From positions 3,906,001-3,970,000 of the forward strand of contig CP152408.1 in assembly GCA_038961845.1 (NCBI GenBank): a DNA stretch of 64,000 nt, given 5' to 3'. The notes beneath the pieces are model-generated. The model ran no database searches. It saw nothing but the letters and a program-made list of their open reading frames with translations, and had not been told where the DNA came from. Positions within the stretch are counted from its first letter, which is position 1; each line of letters opens with the position of its first letter. Both the position numbers and the translations under genes were made by a program. The DNA comes from Xylophilus sp. GW821-FHT01B05. GTDB taxonomy: Bacteria > Pseudomonadota > Gammaproteobacteria > Burkholderiales > Burkholderiaceae_C. Shown here in pieces: positions 1,473 to 28,122 of this stretch.

Positions 1473-3752
1473 ATGTCCCTCGATCTCGAAACCACTGCCG
1501 CTGAAGCCGCGCCCGTACAGGGCGAACTGCTCGATGCGGAATCTTCCCCTCTGACCCTGAGCCTTCAGGATTTCGTCGGCGAGTTCGGCGACGAACTGCT
1601 CGACGCCCTCAACAGCGCCAACCCGCCGGTCTATAGCGGCCAGCCGCAGGCGCACCGACAACTCGTCGTCGCCAGCCTCAAGCGCAAGCTGTTCCCGGCC
1701 CAGGCCGAAGTCGTCCACGCCGCCGCCGAGTTGCTGATCGACCGTGGCGAACGCGCCGCGATCGTCAATGGCGAGATGGGCTGCGGCAAGACGACCGTGG
1801 GTATTGCCACGGCCGCCGTGCTCAACGCCGAAGGTTACCGCCGCACCCTGGTTCTTTCGCCACCGCACCTCGTTTACAAGTGGCGGCGCGAGATCCAGGA
1901 GACCGTGGCGGGCGCCAAGGTGTGGGTGCTCAACGGACCGGACACGCTCGTCAAGCTCATCAAGCTGCGCGAGCAGTTGAACGTCCAGCCCACGGGCCAG
2001 GAGTTCTTTGTCCTGGGCCGCGTGCGGATGCGGATGGGCTTCCACTGGAAGCCCGTCTTCACCCAGCGGCGTACCCGTCACGGCAACGTGGCGGCCTGCC
2101 CCGATTGCGGCACGGTCATCACCGACCTCGACGGCGAGCCGGTCAACCCGGTCGCGCTCGAAGCCGAGGAGTACCGCAGGAAGTGCAGCCACTGCGCCGC
2201 GCCCCTATGGACGCTGATCCGCCCGCGCAGCCTGTCCGGCAGCGACCAGTCCTCGTCCGTGCTGAAAGCCTTGAAGCGCATCCCGACGATCGGAGAAGTC
2301 ACCGCGCAGAAGCTGATGCAGAAGTTCGGCGACGGGTTCCTGGCGTCGATGCTGGGCGACAACATCCATGAGTTCATCAACCTCATGGACGGCAACGGCG
2401 AACTGGTGTTTTCCGACCGTCAGGCCACGCGCATGGAACGTGCGATGGCGAACATGGAGTTTGGCTTCGGCGAAGGGGGATACCAACCCTCAGAGTTTGT
2501 GAAGCGCTATCTTCCACAGGGCACGTTCTACTTGCTCATCGCCGACGAGGCGCACGAGTACAAGAACGGTGGCAGTGCCCAGGGTCAGGCGATGGGCGTG
2601 CTGGCGGCAAAGGCTCGCAAGACCTTGCTGCTGACCGGAACCCTCATGGGGGGATACGGTGATGATCTCTTTCATCTACTGTTTCGAGCCCTGCCTGGGC
2701 GAATGATCGAAGACGGCTACCGCCCGACCACGAGCGGCAGCATGATCTCGGCCGAGATGGCGTTCATGCGCGATCACGGCGTCCTGAAGGACATCTATTC
2801 CGAGAGTACCGGCACGGCGCACAAGACGGCCAAGGGCACCAAGGTATCGGTGCGCACGGTCAAGGCCCCGGGCTTCGGCCCCAAGGGCGTGCTGCGCTGC
2901 ATCCTGCCGTTCACGATCTTCCTCAAGCTCAAAGACATCGGCGGCAACGTCCTGCCGCCGTATGACGAGGAGTTCCGTGAAGTCGCAATGGAAACGGCGC
3001 AAGCCGCGGCCTACCGCGATCTGGCGGGTCGGCTGACCGCGGAGCTGAAACAGGCTCTGGCGCGACGCGATACGACGCTGCTGGGTGTGGTGCTCAACGT
3101 GCTGCTGGCATGGCCGGACTGCTGCTTCCGGTCGGAAACCGTGGTGCATCCGCGCACGCGCAACACCTTGGCATTCGTCCCGGCTCAGTTCAACGAGTTC
3201 GAGGTGACGCCGAAAGAGCGCGAGCTGATCGACATCTGCAAAGAGGAGAAGGCGCAGGGCCGCAAGGTCCTCGCCTACGCGGTCTATACCGGCACGCGCG
3301 ACACCACGTCACGTCTGAAGGTGTTGCTGGAGCAGGAAGGCTTCAAGGTCGCGGTGCTACGCGCGAGCGTGGACGCCAGCCGCCGCGAGGACTGGATCGC
3401 CGAGCAGTTGGACCGTGGCATCGACGTGCTCATCACCAACCCCGAGCTTGTGAAGACGGGACTGGACCTGTTGGAGTTTCCGACGATCGTGTTCATGCAG
3501 TCGGGCTACAACGTGTACTCGCTCCAGCAGGCGGCACGCCGCTCCTGGCGCATCGGGCAAAAGCTGTCCGTGCGCGTGATCTACCTCGGCTACGCGGCCA
3601 CCTCGCAGATGACCTGCCTGGAGCTGATGGCCAAGAAGATCATGGTCTCGCAGTCCACCTCGGGCGATGTACCCGAATCCGGGCTGGATGTGCTTAACCA
3701 GGACGGTGATTCCGTCGAAGTGGCGCTGGCCCGGCAACTGGTCGTCGCCTGA
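1473..3752 (+). CDS. SNF2/DEAD-DEAH family helicase of the ICE core
   Basis: This 759-residue superfamily 2 ATPase is likely to remodel or unwind element DNA in the cytoplasm. Visible motifs are Walker A GEMGCGKT (about residues 100-107), the DEAH box ADEAHEYKN (about 358), and the C-terminal helicase motif VI RRSWRIGQK (about 690), the SNF2-typical form. Between the two ATPase motifs sits an insertion with two CxxC pairs (CPDC about 209, CSHC about 238), probably a zinc-binding module, followed by IPTIGEVTAQKLMQKFG, which resembles a helix-hairpin-helix. Helicases of this type neighbour DUF6094 genes in ICEclc-like elements. The terminator just downstream suggests it ends a transcription unit. 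The role in transfer or replication is inferred. Confidence 0.85.
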   Translation: MSLDLETTAAEAAPVQGELLDAESSPLTLSLQDFVGEFGDELLDALNSANPPVYSGQPQAHRQLVVASLKRKLFPAQAEVVHAAAELLIDRGERAAIVNGEMGCGKTTVGIATAAVLNAEGYRRTLVLSPPHLVYKWRREIQETVAGAKVWVLNGPDTLVKLIKLREQLNVQPTGQEFFVLGRVRMRMGFHWKPVFTQRRTRHGNVAACPDCGTVITDLDGEPVNPVALEAEEYRRKCSHCAAPLWTLIRPRSLSGSDQSSSVLKALKRIPTIGEVTAQKLMQKFGDGFLASMLGDNIHEFINLMDGNGELVFSDRQATRMERAMANMEFGFGEGGYQPSEFVKRYLPQGTFYLLIADEAHEYKNGGSAQGQAMGVLAAKARKTLLLTGTLMGGYGDDLFHLLFRALPGRMIEDGYRPTTSGSMISAEMAFMRDHGVLKDIYSESTGTAHKTAKGTKVSVRTVKAPGFGPKGVLRCILPFTIFLKLKDIGGNVLPPYDEEFREVAMETAQAAAYRDLAGRLTAELKQALARRDTTLLGVVLNVLLAWPDCCFRSETVVHPRTRNTLAFVPAQFNEFEVTPKERELIDICKEEKAQGRKVLAYAVYTGTRDTTSRLKVLLEQEGFKVAVLRASVDASRREDWIAEQLDRGIDVLITNPELVKTGLDLLEFPTIVFMQSGYNVYSLQQAARRSWRIGQKLSVRVIYLGYAATSQMTCLELMAKKIMVSQSTSGDVPESGLDVLNQDGDSVEVALARQLVVA

Positions 3753-5195: not shown

Positions 5196-5921
5196 ATGAA
5201 GCCATCGATCATCTTTTCCGTTCTCCTGCTGGCGTTCACCCAGTGGCCCGCCTGGGCGCAGCAGCCCGCCACGGCTCCCGCCCGCAATGCGCAAAGCCAG
5301 GAGCGCCCGCTGGCCGCCCGCATCCTGGACGACCGGGTGGCGAGCGACTGGGGCCTGCAACCGCAGGAATGGGCGCGCTACCGCGAACTGATGGACGGGC
5401 CGCTGGGCATCTACTCGCCCAACCTGGACCCGCTGTCGGCCCTGGGCATCGAGGCCCGCACCGACGAGGAACGGCGCCGCTACGCAGAACTGCAGGTGCA
5501 GGTCGAGGCGCGCCGCGTCGAGAAGCTGCTTGCCTATCAGCGCGCCTACGACGAGGCCTGGCAGCGCCTGAACCCCGGCATGCAGCGGGTGAACCTGCCG
5601 GACGACAAGCCGGTCGCCGGCGCCACGCGCGGCTCCGGCCGCACGGCAGTGTTCGTCAAGGACGGCTGCGTGGCCTGCGGCCAGCTCGTGCAGCGCCTGC
5701 AATCCTCGGGGGCCGAGTTCGACCTGTACATGGTCGGCAGCCGCCAGGACGACGCGCGCATCCGCGACTGGGCCAAGCGCGCGAACGTCGATCCGGCGCG
5801 CGTGCGCCGCGGCACCATCACGCTCAACCACGACGGCGGCCGCTGGCTGTCGCTGGGCCTGCCCGGCGACTTGCCCGCGGTCGTGCGCGAGATGAACGGC
5901 CAATGGCAGCGCCAGCCATAG
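5196..5921 (+). CDS. ICE protein of the PFL_4693 family (TIGR03759), thioredoxin-like
   Basis: This 241-residue protein is predicted to be periplasmic, with a signal peptide (cleavage near AWAQQ, about residue 22). The middle part is helical and charged. The C-terminal third contains CVACG (Cys about 158 and 161) in a thioredoxin-like setting, so it may handle disulfides or bind a partner through a redox pair. The ATG at 5196 was chosen because it directly precedes the signal peptide and has GGAG 9 bases upstream. The family is found only in GI-type conjugation clusters. The next gene starts within its last 19 bases, showing tight coupling. Confidence 0.85.
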   Translation: MKPSIIFSVLLLAFTQWPAWAQQPATAPARNAQSQERPLAARILDDRVASDWGLQPQEWARYRELMDGPLGIYSPNLDPLSALGIEARTDEERRRYAELQVQVEARRVEKLLAYQRAYDEAWQRLNPGMQRVNLPDDKPVAGATRGSGRTAVFVKDGCVACGQLVQRLQSSGAEFDLYMVGSRQDDARIRDWAKRANVDPARVRRGTITLNHDGGRWLSLGLPGDLPAVVREMNGQWQRQP

Positions 5922-14936: not shown

Positions 14937-17815
14937 TGTGGAAGCTCCCTTGGCCTAAGCCGGCCGCGCCGAAGCTGGCGGCATCCGGCGCTGGCGGTGA
15001 CGAACAGCCGGACGGCTGGCAGCGCCACGTCGAGACCTTGCGACAGGCCGGCATCCCTGAACCCGGCGCGGCGGTCCAGGACCGCAGGCCGGCGACCGTG
15101 GCCGACGAGCAGGCGCTGTACGACGTCGCGCCGTCCTTCACGGAACTGCTGCCTTGGGTGGAGTTTCTGCCCCAATCGAAGTCCATGTTGCTGGAGGACG
15201 GGCAATCGGTCGCGGCCTTCTACGAGCTGGTTCCGTTGGGCACCGAGGGCCGGGAACCCGGCTGGCTGGCGCATGCCCGCGATGCGCTCGAAAACGCCCT
15301 GCAAGACAGTTTCGATGAACTGGACGAGAACCCGTGGGTACTCCAGCTCTACGCCCAGGACGAGCCCAGCTTCGACCAGTACATGCAGACGCTGCGCGAC
15401 TACGTGCAGCCGCGCGCCTGCGGCACGGCGTTCACCGAGTTCTACTTGCGCTTCTTCAGCCACCACCTGCGCGCGGTGGCCAAGCCCGGAGGTCTTTTCG
15501 AGGACACGGTGGTCACGCGGCTGCGCTGGCGCGGGCAGACGCGGCGCGTGCGCATGGTCGTCTATCGCCGTGCCACCGGGCAGGCGAGCCGCCGTGGCCA
15601 GACGCCCGAGCAGATGCTGAACATCGTCTGCGACCGCCTGTGCGGCGGACTCGCGAACGCTGGCATCCAGGCGCGGCGCATGGCGGCGGCCGACATCCAC
15701 GACTGGCTGCTGCGGTGGTTCAACCCGCGGCCCACGCTGCTCGGGCCTGGGGCCGAGGACCGGGAACGCTTCTACGCACTGGCGCGCTACCCCGACGAGA
15801 CCGAGGCTGGCGAGATCGAATTGGCGAGCGGACGAGATTTCAGCCAGCGGCTGTTCTTCGGCCAGCCGCGCTCCGACGTGGCGCACGGCACCTGGTACTT
15901 CGACGGCATGCCGCACCGTGTGCTGATCACCGACCGGCTGCGCATGCCGCCCGGCACCGGACACCTGACCGGCGAGACCCGCAAAGGGGATGCCATCAAC
16001 ACGCTGTTCGACCAGATGCCGGAAGACACCTTGCTTTGCCTCACGATGATCGCGACGCCGCAGGATGTCCTGGAAGCGGATCTCAACCATCTGGCGAAGA
16101 AGGCCGTGGGCGAGACGCTGGCGTCGGAGCAGACGCTCAAGGACGTGCAGGAAGCCCGTTCCCTGATCGGCAGCGCGCACAAGCTCTACCGGGGAACGCT
16201 GGCGTTCTATTTGCGCGGCCGGGATGAAGCCGAACTGGACCGGCGCGGCCTGGATCTGGCGAACGTGATGCTCAATGCCGGCTTGCAGCCGGTGCGCGAG
16301 GACGACGAGGTGGCGCCGCTGAACAGCTACCTGCGCTGGCTACCATGCTGCTACAACCCCGGCCAGGACCGGCGCAAGTGGTACACGCAACTGATGTTCG
16401 CCCAGCACGCGGCGAATCTGTCGCCAGTGTGGGGCCGCGCCCAGGGTACGGGGCACCCCGGCATCACGATGTTCAATCGCGGTGGCGGCCCGATTACGTT
16501 TGACCCCTTGAACAGGTTGGACCGGCAAATGAATGCCCACCTGTTTCTGTTCGGCCCCACCGGCTCGGGTAAGTCAGCGACCCTCAATAACCTTTTGAAC
16601 CAGGTCACGGCCATCTACCGGCCGCGGCTGTTCATCGTGGAAGCGGGGAATTCCTTCGGCCTGTTCGCAGACTTCGCCCGGCGCCTGGGCCTGACCGTGA
16701 ACCGGGTCAAGCTGGCCCCTGGCTCGGGCATCAGCCTCGCGCCATTCGCCGATGCACGCCGGTTGATCGAAACACCGAGCGACGTGCAGACCCTCGATGC
16801 CGACGCGCTGGACGAAGATCTGCCCCCGGATGCCTCGGCCATGGAGGCGGACGAGCAGCGCGACGTGCTGGGCGAACTGGAGATCACGGCGCGGCTGATG
16901 ATCACCGGCGGCGAAGACAAGGAAGAGGCTCGGATGACGCGGGCCGATCGCTCGCTGATCCGCCAGTGCATCCTCGACGCCGCCGAGCACTGCGTGGCCG
17001 AGAAGCGCACGGTGCTCACGCGCGACGTGCGCAACGCACTGCGCACCCGTGGCCAGGACCCGACGCTGCCCGAGATGCGCCGCGTGCGGCTGCTGGAGAT
17101 GGCCGACGCGATGGACATGTTCTGCCAAGGCACGGACGGCGAGATGTTCGACCGCGACGGCACGCCCTGGCCCGAAGCCGACATCACCCTGGTCGATCTG
17201 GCGACCTACGCCCGCGAGGGCTACAACGCCCAGCTCTCGATCGCCTACATCAGCCTGATCAGCACGGTGAACAACATCGCCGAGCGCGACCAGTACCTTG
17301 GCCGCCCGATCATCAACGTCACGGATGAGGGGCACATCATCACGAAGAACCCGCTGCTCGCGCCATACGTGGTCAAGATCACGAAGATGTGGCGCAAGTT
17401 GGGCGCCTGGTTCTGGCTCGCGACGCAGAACATTGACGACCTGCCACGCGCCGCGGAGCCGATGCTCAACATGATCGAGTGGTGGATCTGCCTGTCGATG
17501 CCGCCGGACGAGGTGGAGAAGATCGCCAGGTTCCGCGAACTCTCACCCGCGCAGAAAGCGCTGATGCTGTCGGCGCGCAAAGAAGCGGGCAAGTTCACCG
17601 AGGGCGTCATCCTCTCCAAGAGCATGGAAGTGCTGTTCCGCGCCGTGCCGCCGAGCCTATACCTCGCGCTTGCGCAGACCGAACCCGAAGAGAAGGCCGA
17701 GCGCTACCAGCTCATGCAGCAATACGGCTGCACCGAACTGGAAGCGGCCTTCAAGGTGGCCGAGAAGATCGACCAGGCACGCGGCATCGAGTCGCCAGCC
17801 CTGGAACTGTCGTAA
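14936..17815 (+). CDS. Conjugative transfer ATPase PFL_4706 family (TraC/VirB4)
   Basis: This 959-residue VirB4/TraC-type motor is expected to power assembly and export at the inner membrane. Walker A GPTGSGKS lies at about 540-547. A Walker B-like VTDEGHII is near 798-805, followed by the conserved KITKMWRKLGAWFWLATQN. The N-terminal half carries the TraC domain (DYVQPRACGTAFTEFYLRFF region, about 155-180). The length is normal for TIGR03744. It starts at a one-base overlap with the lipoprotein gene. The product has no frameshift or missing motif. Confidence 0.95.
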   Translation: MWKLPWPKPAAPKLAASGAGGDEQPDGWQRHVETLRQAGIPEPGAAVQDRRPATVADEQALYDVAPSFTELLPWVEFLPQSKSMLLEDGQSVAAFYELVPLGTEGREPGWLAHARDALENALQDSFDELDENPWVLQLYAQDEPSFDQYMQTLRDYVQPRACGTAFTEFYLRFFSHHLRAVAKPGGLFEDTVVTRLRWRGQTRRVRMVVYRRATGQASRRGQTPEQMLNIVCDRLCGGLANAGIQARRMAAADIHDWLLRWFNPRPTLLGPGAEDRERFYALARYPDETEAGEIELASGRDFSQRLFFGQPRSDVAHGTWYFDGMPHRVLITDRLRMPPGTGHLTGETRKGDAINTLFDQMPEDTLLCLTMIATPQDVLEADLNHLAKKAVGETLASEQTLKDVQEARSLIGSAHKLYRGTLAFYLRGRDEAELDRRGLDLANVMLNAGLQPVREDDEVAPLNSYLRWLPCCYNPGQDRRKWYTQLMFAQHAANLSPVWGRAQGTGHPGITMFNRGGGPITFDPLNRLDRQMNAHLFLFGPTGSGKSATLNNLLNQVTAIYRPRLFIVEAGNSFGLFADFARRLGLTVNRVKLAPGSGISLAPFADARRLIETPSDVQTLDADALDEDLPPDASAMEADEQRDVLGELEITARLMITGGEDKEEARMTRADRSLIRQCILDAAEHCVAEKRTVLTRDVRNALRTRGQDPTLPEMRRVRLLEMADAMDMFCQGTDGEMFDRDGTPWPEADITLVDLATYAREGYNAQLSIAYISLISTVNNIAERDQYLGRPIINVTDEGHIITKNPLLAPYVVKITKMWRKLGAWFWLATQNIDDLPRAAEPMLNMIEWWICLSMPPDEVEKIARFRELSPAQKALMLSARKEAGKFTEGVILSKSMEVLFRAVPPSLYLALAQTEPEEKAERYQLMQQYGCTELEAAFKVAEKIDQARGIESPALELS

Positions 17816-17828
17816 GCCGGAGAACGCC

Positions 17829-18611
17829 ATGGAACAGAAACGTCCTTCCATTCCGATGCAGGTTCAGGCGTTTCGTCGTCGCCGGCAGCACCACTGGCGC
17901 TGGGCTTTGGCTGCTGCGCTGGTCGCGCTGCTGCTGATCTGGCTGGTGTCCCGGACGCCCGGCGAGTCCTCACCGCAGTCGTCCACGCCGGTGAACGTGG
18001 CGCAGGTGGCCGGGCCGCCCTGGCAGACGGGCAACCCGGAGGGCCGTTTCACGCTGACGCTCTATGCCGACCTGGAGTGCCCGTTCTGCCGGGAGTACTT
18101 CCCGCAGCTCAAGCGCTGGGTCGGCAGCAACGCCGATGTCACCCTGCAATGGCACCACCAGCCGCTGGCCGCGCACGAGCCGGCCGCGTCGGCCGAGGCG
18201 CGCCTTGTCGAGTGCGCCGCCGAAGCGGGCGGGCATGGCGCGTTCTGGCATGCGGTCGAATGGGTCTATGCCCACACGCGCAGCGACGGCCAGGGATTGC
18301 CCGAGGGCCTGCGCTACCCCGAATCGACGCCGGCCGTCGAGCAGTGCATGGCGAGCGAACAGGCCGATGCCGTCATCCGCGCCCAGGCCACGGAGGCCAC
18401 CAAGAGCGGCGTGACCGCCACGCCATCGCTGCGCCTGCTCGATCGCCAGACGGGCCAAGCCATTCTGCTGCAGGGGCCGATCGAGGGCGATGCGCTGCTG
18501 TCGGCCATGGACATGCTGGCGTCCGAGGACACAGCCAGCGACGCGGCGGCTTCGCCCGCCACCCCCACATCCGAAATGCCTGCCGACGTTGTCGGCGACA
18601 TGCCCAGGTAG
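17829..18611 (+). CDS. Membrane-anchored DsbA-like thioredoxin-fold protein of the ICE
   Basis: This 260-residue protein has a basic N-terminus and one membrane helix (about residues 25-45), then a periplasmic thioredoxin fold with the redox pair CPFC (Cys about 84 and 87) and a cis-proline loop VTATPSL (about 200). It probably makes or isomerises disulfide bonds in secretion components such as the TraU/TraH-like proteins, as DsbC/TrbB do in F plasmids. The ATG at 17829 follows GGAG by 7 bases. An equivalent gene sits between traC and radC in related elements. A low-complexity Ala/Thr/Pro tail ends the protein. Confidence 0.88.
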   Translation: MEQKRPSIPMQVQAFRRRRQHHWRWALAAALVALLLIWLVSRTPGESSPQSSTPVNVAQVAGPPWQTGNPEGRFTLTLYADLECPFCREYFPQLKRWVGSNADVTLQWHHQPLAAHEPAASAEARLVECAAEAGGHGAFWHAVEWVYAHTRSDGQGLPEGLRYPESTPAVEQCMASEQADAVIRAQATEATKSGVTATPSLRLLDRQTGQAILLQGPIEGDALLSAMDMLASEDTASDAAASPATPTSEMPADVVGDMPR

Positions 18612-18632
18612 CCCTCGGTCTTGGAGGCTACG

Positions 18633-18791
18633 GCGCGGTTTGCCGCGCTGACCGCTACCCGTTCGCTTTCGCATCCTGGCTGCGAACAATCACCGCTGAG
18701 CGGTGGTGGATGCACCTTGTTCCGCTTTTTTCCATCCCCAGGAGGGCTTGCCCTCCCAGGGCGTGCGCCCTCCGATCTCACCCTCCGGAGG
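18633..18791 (+). ncRNA. Candidate structured 5' leader RNA upstream of radC
   Basis: A 159-base stretch before radC holds a series of perfect stems: GCGCGG/CCGCGC (18633-18648), GTTCGC/GCGAAC (18661-18687), ACCGC/GCGGT (18692-18704), GGAGGGC/GCCCTCC (18741-18756), AGGGCG/CGCCCT (18758-18771), and a palindrome CCTCCGGAGG (18782-18791) that contains the ribosome site. The GGAGGG and CCCTCC segments could also pair across hairpins, giving alternative folds that hide or free the ribosome site. A radC RNA motif has been reported from comparative genomics ahead of radC-like genes on proteobacterial mobile elements. Whether this is the same family was not tested. Confidence 0.55.
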
Positions 18792-18797
18792 TTCACC

Positions 18798-19292
18798 ATG
18801 TCTTTCGTTGCCAATGACTCCTGTGTGGAGTCGCTTTCCGCCGTCGCAGCCCAGCATGAGGACTGGATCATCCAGCAGGCCATCGCGCTGCTGGAGCGAC
18901 GGATCTTCAAAGTCGGACCGTGCCTCAGCCGCCCGGCTGCCGTGCGGGACTACCTGCGTCTGAAACTGGTCGCTGAGCCCAACGAGGTATTCGCAGTCGT
19001 GTTCCTGGACAGCATGCACCAGGTGTTGGCCTACGAACCGCTGTTCAGGGGCACGATCAATTCGACTGCGGTCTATCCGCGTGTCGTCGTGCAGCGTGTA
19101 TTGGAGCTGAAAGCCGCCGCTGTGGTCTTCGCGCACCAGCACCCCTCGGGTATCACTGAGCCATCGAGCGCGGATCGCGCGCTGACCCAGCAACTCCAGG
19201 CGGCGCTCGCGCTCATCGATGTTCGGGTACTGGATCACATCATCGTCGGCCTAGGAAATCCGTACTCCTTCGCAGAGCACGGCCTGCTGTAG
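18798..19292 (+). CDS. radC: RadC-like JAB-domain protein
   Basis: This 164-residue protein carries the JAB/MPN metal-binding signature HQHPSG (His about 113 and 115) followed by SSAD (Asp about 126), with a conserved Glu earlier. RadC-family proteins on mobile elements are short and lack the helix-hairpin-helix of chromosomal RadC. Their proposed roles in DNA repair or as metal-dependent hydrolases are unproven. GGAGG lies 7 bases before the ATG inside a self-complementary sequence. A strong terminator follows, so radC seems to close its unit. The position after traC and the DsbA-like gene is conserved in ICEclc-type elements. Confidence 0.92.
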   Translation: MSFVANDSCVESLSAVAAQHEDWIIQQAIALLERRIFKVGPCLSRPAAVRDYLRLKLVAEPNEVFAVVFLDSMHQVLAYEPLFRGTINSTAVYPRVVVQRVLELKAAAVVFAHQHPSGITEPSSADRALTQQLQAALALIDVRVLDHIIVGLGNPYSFAEHGLL

Positions 19293-19313: not shown

Positions 19314-19341
19314 GCGGGGGCTTCGGCCTCCGCTTTTCTTT
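19314..19341 (+). terminator. Rho-independent terminator after radC
   Basis: GCGGGGGC (19314-19321) pairs with GCCTCCGC (19326-19333) with one G-U pair, around an extra-stable TTCG tetraloop. It is followed by TTTTCTTT. It lies 22 bases after the radC stop and before the next ATTGTTTG element, separating two transfer operons. Confidence 0.9.

Positions 19342-26151: not shown

Positions 26152-28122
<1,971 letters not shown>

Follow-up and report, generated by a model that had tools for sequence, protein, structure and literature searches.

A radC-like gene of Xylophilus sp. GW821-FHT01B05 is preceded by a leader crowded with inverted repeats, raising the question of whether this leader is a regulatory RNA that can hide or expose the start of the gene, as a sequence-only reading of the locus had proposed. 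We posit that it is a cis-acting translational switch in which the core of a known RNA family, RF01754, would be joined to an expression platform in the mRNA of a conjugative element; from comparison of leaders we assign this reading a probability a little under 0.6. The interpretation from which the work began is partly supported.

A known RNA family with an added 3′ module

The guess that the leader is related to the radC RNA motif was right: cmscan finds a full-length match to RF01754 (model positions 1-149) at 128.6 bits against a gathering cut-off of 40, the sole gathering-level Rfam match in the window, by which we mean the whole stretch of 64,000 nucleotides analyzed (C1:3906001-3970000 of a single-contig genome of 5.83 Mb). 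The family is characteristically located before radC-like or other DNA-handling genes, and the window copy, full length and placed before a radC-like gene beside conjugation genes, conforms to this pattern. The identification of the regulatory RNA with the motif holds for the 5′ part: the match ends at 18713, leaving the last 84 bases before the radC start codon outside it, so the switch-like part, a 3′ module at 18736-18796 (strands P1, P2, P4 and P5 in Table 1) that the Rfam model lacks, is an extension of the known family and not the motif itself. At the other end, the boundaries first given for the leader, 18633-18791, were too narrow, as the match begins within the upstream gene. The window RNA is an ordinary RF01754 member with an unusual, testable extension.

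Table 1. Features of the radC leader and its neighbors (window positions)
Feature	Position	Strand	Basis or remark
DsbA/thioredoxin-like ORF, upstream	17670..18611	+	PF13462, PF01323; start codon provisional
radC RNA core (RF01754)	18565..18713	+	cmscan; first 47 nt inside upstream ORF 17670-18611
Core hairpin H1	18576..18601 (18576-18578:18599-18601; 18582-18587:18591-18596)	+	Rfam structure; covariation, 38 cores
Core hairpin H2	18608..18631 (18608-18613:18626-18631)	+	Rfam structure, covariation; holds TAG stop of upstream ORF
Pseudoknot c:c′	CGGTC 18616-18620 : GACCG 18650-18654	+	covariation
Core hairpin H3 (stem 1)	18633..18648	+	6/6 pairs change on both sides
Helix a:a′	GTTCGC 18661-18666 : GCGAAC 18682-18687	+	permutation test
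Helix b:b′	GCATCC 18671-18676 : GGATGC 18708-18713	+	permutation test; H-type pseudoknot with a:a′ predicted
Core hairpin d (stem 3)	18691..18705	+	Rfam structure; conserved in relatives
P1, look-alike of Shine-Dalgarno/start region	18741..18752	+	can pair with P2 or P4
P2, partner of P1 in local hairpin (P1+P2 = stem 4)	18750..18756	+	pairing in 28 radC leaders
P4, anti-Shine-Dalgarno strand, CCTCC core 18769-18773	18760..18774	+	can pair with P1 or P5
P5, Shine-Dalgarno (GGAGG 18787-18791) and spacer to start codon	18786..18796	+	partner matching
radC-like gene, 164 aa, JAB domain PF04002	18798..19292	+	hmmscan, 140.8 bits
Terminator-like hairpin and T-run, just after radC and before DUF1525 gene	19314..19333	+	pattern scan; one found vs 0.7 expected, weak

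The six perfect stems reported for 18633-18791 are real. A scan for stems of at least 5 bp with loops of 0-9 returns exactly six (18633-18648, 18668-18686, 18691-18705, 18741-18756, 18758-18771 and 18782-18791) whereas sequences shuffled by dinucleotide give 1.26 on average; none of 1000 shuffles has that many, and among 402 successive 159-base segments of the window one equals it. The folding energy of the leader (18600-18820) is unremarkable, with z -1.68 and 14 of 200 shuffles folding equally well. Stems 1, 3 and 4 are conserved in relatives; stems 2 and 6 are not. Stem 2 (TTCGCA/TGCGAA) was rejected as a peculiarity of the window: GCGAAC has its conserved pairing with the GTTCGC of helix a:a′. 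Stem 5 overlaps P4; in 28 radC leaders, four of its six pairs hold in 98.2% of cells. A single cell is compensatory, and 85 of 500 shuffles covary as much.

The sequence-only reading was also correct that GGAGGG and CCCTCC segments have several possible partners, and the last palindrome, CCTCCGGAGG, exists as stem 6 and contains the Shine-Dalgarno sequence; as the lock on that sequence it was rejected, since the window and L023 are the only 2 of 80 radC leaders to have it. The palindrome is an accident of the spacer in the window, and the conserved partner of the Shine-Dalgarno sequence is the CCTCC of P4, found 15-45 bases before the start in 74 of the 80.

The core

Comparison of leaders establishes the core together with its pseudoknots. 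Across 38 cores aligned without structure, H1-H3 and c:c′ are paired in 92.9% of cells and hold 110 compensatory cells against 34.7 in shuffled alignments, and c:c′, paired in 89.2% of cells, varies on both sides at three of its five pairs. Helices a:a′ and b:b′ were examined in 52 distinct combinations drawn from 99 of 133 leaders: a:a′ keeps 311 of 312 pairs against a permuted mean of 294.7 (P 0.0005), and b:b′, for which the best register in the insert was chosen in real and permuted combinations alike, keeps 295 of 312 against 282.8 (P 0.0005). The variants of a:a′ are mainly GTTCGC/GCGAAC, GTCCGC/GCGGAC and GCTCGC/GCGAGC, and those of b:b′ include GCATCC/GGATGC, GCATCG/CGATGC and GCACCG/GGGTGC. 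A findable a:a′ is absent from 34 of the 133 leaders, 23 of which belong to the MDTQ/MDRS group. The nested Rfam structure omits c:c′ and pairs part of a′ with b′ rather than forming a:a′ plus b:b′. PMC7657543 counts radC/RF01754 as one of the families for which the database structure leaves out pairs that covary; we therefore do not claim the core pseudoknots as new, and they may be known already.

In the 28 core pairs of the 5′ domain, G-U occupies 46 cells against 110.8 after shuffling (42%) and A-C 18 against 80.1 (22%), an excess of G-U over A-C that leans to the plus (mRNA) strand as the folded strand. The TAG stop of the upstream ORF, whose counterpart in a relative is annotated as a thioredoxin domain-containing protein, lies within H2 (18608-18613), and the RNA overlaps the end of the coding sequence; translation of this ORF might act on the core in the window copy. 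In the copy before the STY4534 gene, the preceding ORF stops before the core, so any such effect would not be general. A direct repeat, CATGCCCAGG / CATCCCCAGG, recurs at 18599-18608 in the core and 18733-18742 just before P1.

Predicted competing strands at the ribosome-binding site

The tails that follow the core differ between gene families yet mostly share the order P1, P2, P4, P5. P1 resembles the Shine-Dalgarno/start region (GGAGGGCTTGCC against GGAGGTTCACC in the window; GGAGGTTCGCC in many relatives), a likeness that is partly due to both resembling ribosome sites. P1, P4 and P5 read GGAGGGCTTGCC, GGCGTGCGCCCTCC and CGGAGGTTCAC in the window, GCGGGGTTACGCACC, GGTGTGTCTCCGC and GGAGATTCACC in the STY4534 leader L002, and ACAAGGGACCTC, GAGGAATCCCTTGT and CAAGGAGATTCC in the MDRS leader L003. 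We propose that in an OFF state P1 would pair with P2 and P4 with the Shine-Dalgarno/start region P5, so that radC would be poorly translated, and that in an ON state P1, imitating P5, would capture P4 and leave P5 free; the pseudoknotted core would be the likely sensor. As judged by partner matching and structure prediction, the two helices would be mutually exclusive, one of them hiding the Shine-Dalgarno sequence.

The evidence comes chiefly from comparing the duplex energies of real strand partners with those of swapped ones across nine gene families. The 133 leaders were clustered into 37 types at about 80% identity over the last 48 bases, or 36 types once L156, whose start is not credible, was left out. 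The loci used were the window, 33 of 80 radC loci chosen from distinct cores, and 45 further loci, 79 in all and 76 distinct; 60 further regions were hand-picked for variety among the matches listed. Left out were L001, which is identical to the window; L105-L107, which score under the Rfam cut-off; L095 and L103, in which no start codon is credible; and L182, which lacks a credible gene. Start codons were re-set by hand in L144, L180, L183, L188 and L189. An initial swap test on 10-13 representatives yielded weaker results (P 0.0004 to 0.019). In an early comparison by group, native partners were favored in radC, DUF3577, MDTQ and the one MPAP leader, SAAGHYI leaders were about even, and the single MDNI and MQPK leaders ran in the opposite direction.

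In the full set, native P4:P5 duplexes over the wider segment beat the median swap in 28 of 37 types, a result that none of 50000 permutations equaled. The preference holds in newly fetched leaders alone (17 types including L156, P=0.019) and with one leader per family (n=9, P=0.007), and with P4 narrowed to -38..-17 it gives P=2e-5 for 36 types and 0.0014 for one per family (n=9). P1:P4 is likewise favored (P=1e-4 for 36 types, 0.013 for one per family and 0.004 for the 27 non-radC types), as is pairing of a broader upstream segment with -48..-17, mostly P1:P2 (P=2e-5; one per family, 0.0016). P4:P5 and P1:P4 use at least three common P4 bases in 34 of 36 types, so the two cannot both form fully and are mutually exclusive. 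Native partners had no advantage at 29 start sites elsewhere in the window (P=0.39), nor did a neighboring upstream segment against P5 (P=0.999) or the upstream segment against P5 (P=0.94) or against the first coding bases (P=0.89). The segment borders of these tests were set after the pattern had been seen. We conclude that comparison demonstrates co-evolution of the strands of both predicted, mutually exclusive helices; the platform support is mainly from comparison between families, among leaders that are related by descent.

Among the STY4534 leaders, an upstream CACC is present in 24 of 24, GGTG in P4 in 23 of 24, and CACC directly before the ATG in 23 of 24. The Shine-Dalgarno sequence is predicted to be unpaired with an average probability of 0.04-0.19 in the four large families against 0.38 at 29 control starts, all with predicted start codons.

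Nine of the 37 types fail to beat their median swap for P4:P5 (L005, from the same genome, L009, L125, L152, L156, L189, L190, L191 and L200). Among radC leaders P4:P5 hardly varies and has no pair changing on both sides, and P1:P4 hardly varies either, with no compensatory change. Counted jointly, the two tail hairpins of the radC leaders show no covariation beyond that of shuffles, 67 of 500 of which reach the same score. In an MDTQ/MDRS alignment of 11 rows, one from another family and 10 of them distinct, five pairs change on both sides and 83.6% of cells are paired in the real pairing; sliding the pairing by one column equals or exceeds the real one on three of five measures, with as many both-side pairs, 13 pair types against 9 and a covariation score of 0.285 against 0.236, at fewer paired cells (66.4%). 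A MAFFT alignment of radC with STY4534 tails was not counted, P4 being out of register. On account of the failed covariation counts we grade the switch lower, and static hairpins higher, than we would have otherwise.

Switch or static hairpins

The rival strengthened by these counts holds that P1:P2 and P4:P5 are two independent hairpins that do no more than dampen translation or keep the ribosome site at a distance from the core. Each hairpin is supported: P1:P2, a helix of 11 pairs, is paired in 88.0% of cells and has two pairs with changes on both sides in 28 radC leaders. Moreover, predicted energies favor OFF in most types and ON in 7 of 36, with a median difference of 4.5 kcal/mol; in the window, where the outer part of P4:P5 carries a mismatch, the two states are predicted to differ by 1.3 kcal/mol, with ON slightly favored. 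Static hairpins would nevertheless leave unexplained why P1:P4 is on the whole more complementary than swapped pairs (P=1e-4; one per family, 0.013), although P1, P2, P4 and P5 are alike and this could partly follow from P1:P2 plus P4:P5. Nor would they account for the upstream CACC of the STY4534 leaders, which lies in the P1-P2 loop (L002 and L008 drawn) and whose conservation is thus not explained by P1:P2. We regard static hairpins as unlikely.

The translational switch that we prefer shares its logic with translational riboswitches and kindred leaders, which have sequestrator and anti-sequestrator strands. Here too a folded domain lies upstream of an anti-Shine-Dalgarno strand for which a putative anti-sequestrator would compete; the difference is that no core-P4 coupling is detected by sequence, core-to-P4 pairing as a link between core and platform finding no support (P=0.60 and 0.15). 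The core gave P=0.03 in the swap test against P5. The proposal that the leader hides or exposes the start of radC stands insofar as the segments co-vary across gene families. We infer the rest, namely use of both states by the cell, a deciding role for the core and the action of a shared signal.

Possible control of transcription or of DNA transfer

The core could instead decide whether transcription ends, through a stem and T-run. A stretch rich in T (5 or more in 8 bases) lies directly after the core in 23 of 27 SAAGHYI and 7 of 7 MDNI leaders, 30 of 34 together (for example L004, L005, L123, L147, L159, L168, L183 and L202), against a background of 0.8% of window positions, and P4:P5 is weaker in the T-run types (P=0.053 for 11 types vs 2e-5 for the 25 others). 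For these two families the T-run could be a second, transcriptional platform. As a general account this is highly unlikely: the stretch is found in 6 of 44 radC leaders and in none of 55 from other families, including 0 of 24 STY4534 and 0 of 23 MDTQ/MDRS leaders. In the window copy a T6 lies 12 bases past the core, no stem is directly followed by a T-run, and a pattern scan finds no intrinsic terminator between core and radC; a scan for promoters of the sigma-70 type finds none in the window leader.

A role in DNA, as single-stranded DNA folding during transfer into, for example, an Frpo-type promoter or a protein-binding site, is more improbable still. Frpo/ssi elements are single-stranded promoters of conjugative plasmids, and such plasmid elements offer a comparable precedent for folded elements on one strand before conjugative-element genes; the copies here are likewise repeated on one strand of a region that encodes a relaxase with a TraI_2 domain (window 26230-27171). 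An Frpo-type fold would use the minus strand, whereas the G-U and A-C counts of the core lean to the plus strand, and a paired Shine-Dalgarno region speaks for a role in translation. That the leader is a selfish repeat, or a duplicate that spread along with the genes and has no function, is scarcely credible: this would fit the several copies per genome, but not the compensatory changes in the core or the partner matching in the platform.

Genomic setting and distribution

The genome holds five RF01754 copies, all on the plus strand within about 29 kb (3895480-3924713). The four besides the window copy lie to its left, at C1:3895480-3901689 (2480-2617, 3379-3515, 5635-5783 and 8544-8689 of L007), and the genes that follow the five encode a 185-aa protein (MDNI type), a 70-aa protein (SAAGHYI), a 267-aa protein (MDRS), an STY4534-family ICE replication protein and RadC. 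Conjugation genes in the window include those for a TraC-like ATPase, DUF1525 and TraU, and the opposite strand carries an integrase-like ORF (651 aa) at 4085508 of the genome. In gene order and content we take the region to resemble the ICEclc family, of which the LB400 element (L023) is presumably ICEclc itself.

Several genes of the region have an element of this kind before them, so a single signal sensed by the core could adjust their translation jointly. It is tempting to extend this to RF01754 as the sensor of an element-wide, riboswitch-like regulon, in which one type of core would serve two kinds of platform, the Shine-Dalgarno look-alike switch before radC, the STY4534 replication gene and others and the T-run platform before two further genes, with a single transfer or establishment signal resetting both translation and transcription. 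So broad a reading is, in our judgment, doubtful.

Matches occur in at least 2 of 60 relatives (one besides this genome), at least 2 of 369 genomes across the class (again one other) and at least 12 of 399 across the order, 9 of them over the cut-off (11 others, 8 over the cut-off), each count including the genome itself and being a lower bound because large genome searches score part of the candidates; order genomes over the cut-off have 3-7 listed matches each. All of 30 further genomes searched are over the cut-off with 1-10 matches, and 29 have at least three (3-10); RF01754 was found in none of 14 control genomes. At loci of close RadC relatives, 78 of 80 match a covariance model built here, the remaining two being cut off just upstream with 38 and 1 bases available. 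The leader matches no phage record and 8 plasmid records, three across most of the query. In one locus (L204, Pseudomonas veronii plasmid NZ_CP039632.3, 112000-161000), genes for a conjugative ATPase, a thioredoxin-domain protein and radC follow in this order; the plasmid is typed IncP/MOBH and has mercury-resistance genes nearby. In L152 and L191 about 140 bases separate the radC RNA from an ORF whose product begins MSTIRL; the tail is longer there, and P4:P5 gives no good lock. In L180 and L181 the radC RNA precedes an ORF starting MLRFTG, and TTCCTC of L180 can pair with GAGGAA at the ribosome site.

Relation to earlier work and significance

Transcription of the related ICEclc has been studied before. 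The main texts of PMC2892462, PMC6561031, PMC10732049, PMC13098234 and PMC9286271 do not contain radC, and a transcript break in ICEclc, considered as cleavage in the radC leader, was set aside since in the accessible text of PMC2892462 it adjoins the presumed pilL gene. Weinberg et al. 2010 (PMC2864571) list the radC RNA motif, RF01754, as a candidate RNA; in their main text radC occurs once, in a table. The STAXI motif, as presented in that main text, is likewise a pseudoknot-containing candidate RNA near DNA-handling and antirestriction genes; its pseudoknots stand in tandem, and RF01754 is a separate family with one unit per gene examined. The literature searched, chiefly main texts outside subscription journals, yielded neither a functional study of RF01754 nor an earlier description of the platform.

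Competing helices at the ribosome site give RF01754 a concrete, testable mechanism, and the presence of several copies per genome suggests that conjugative elements of a widespread family coordinate the expression of their genes after transcription. The signal, if found, would tell when such elements switch on their DNA-handling genes.
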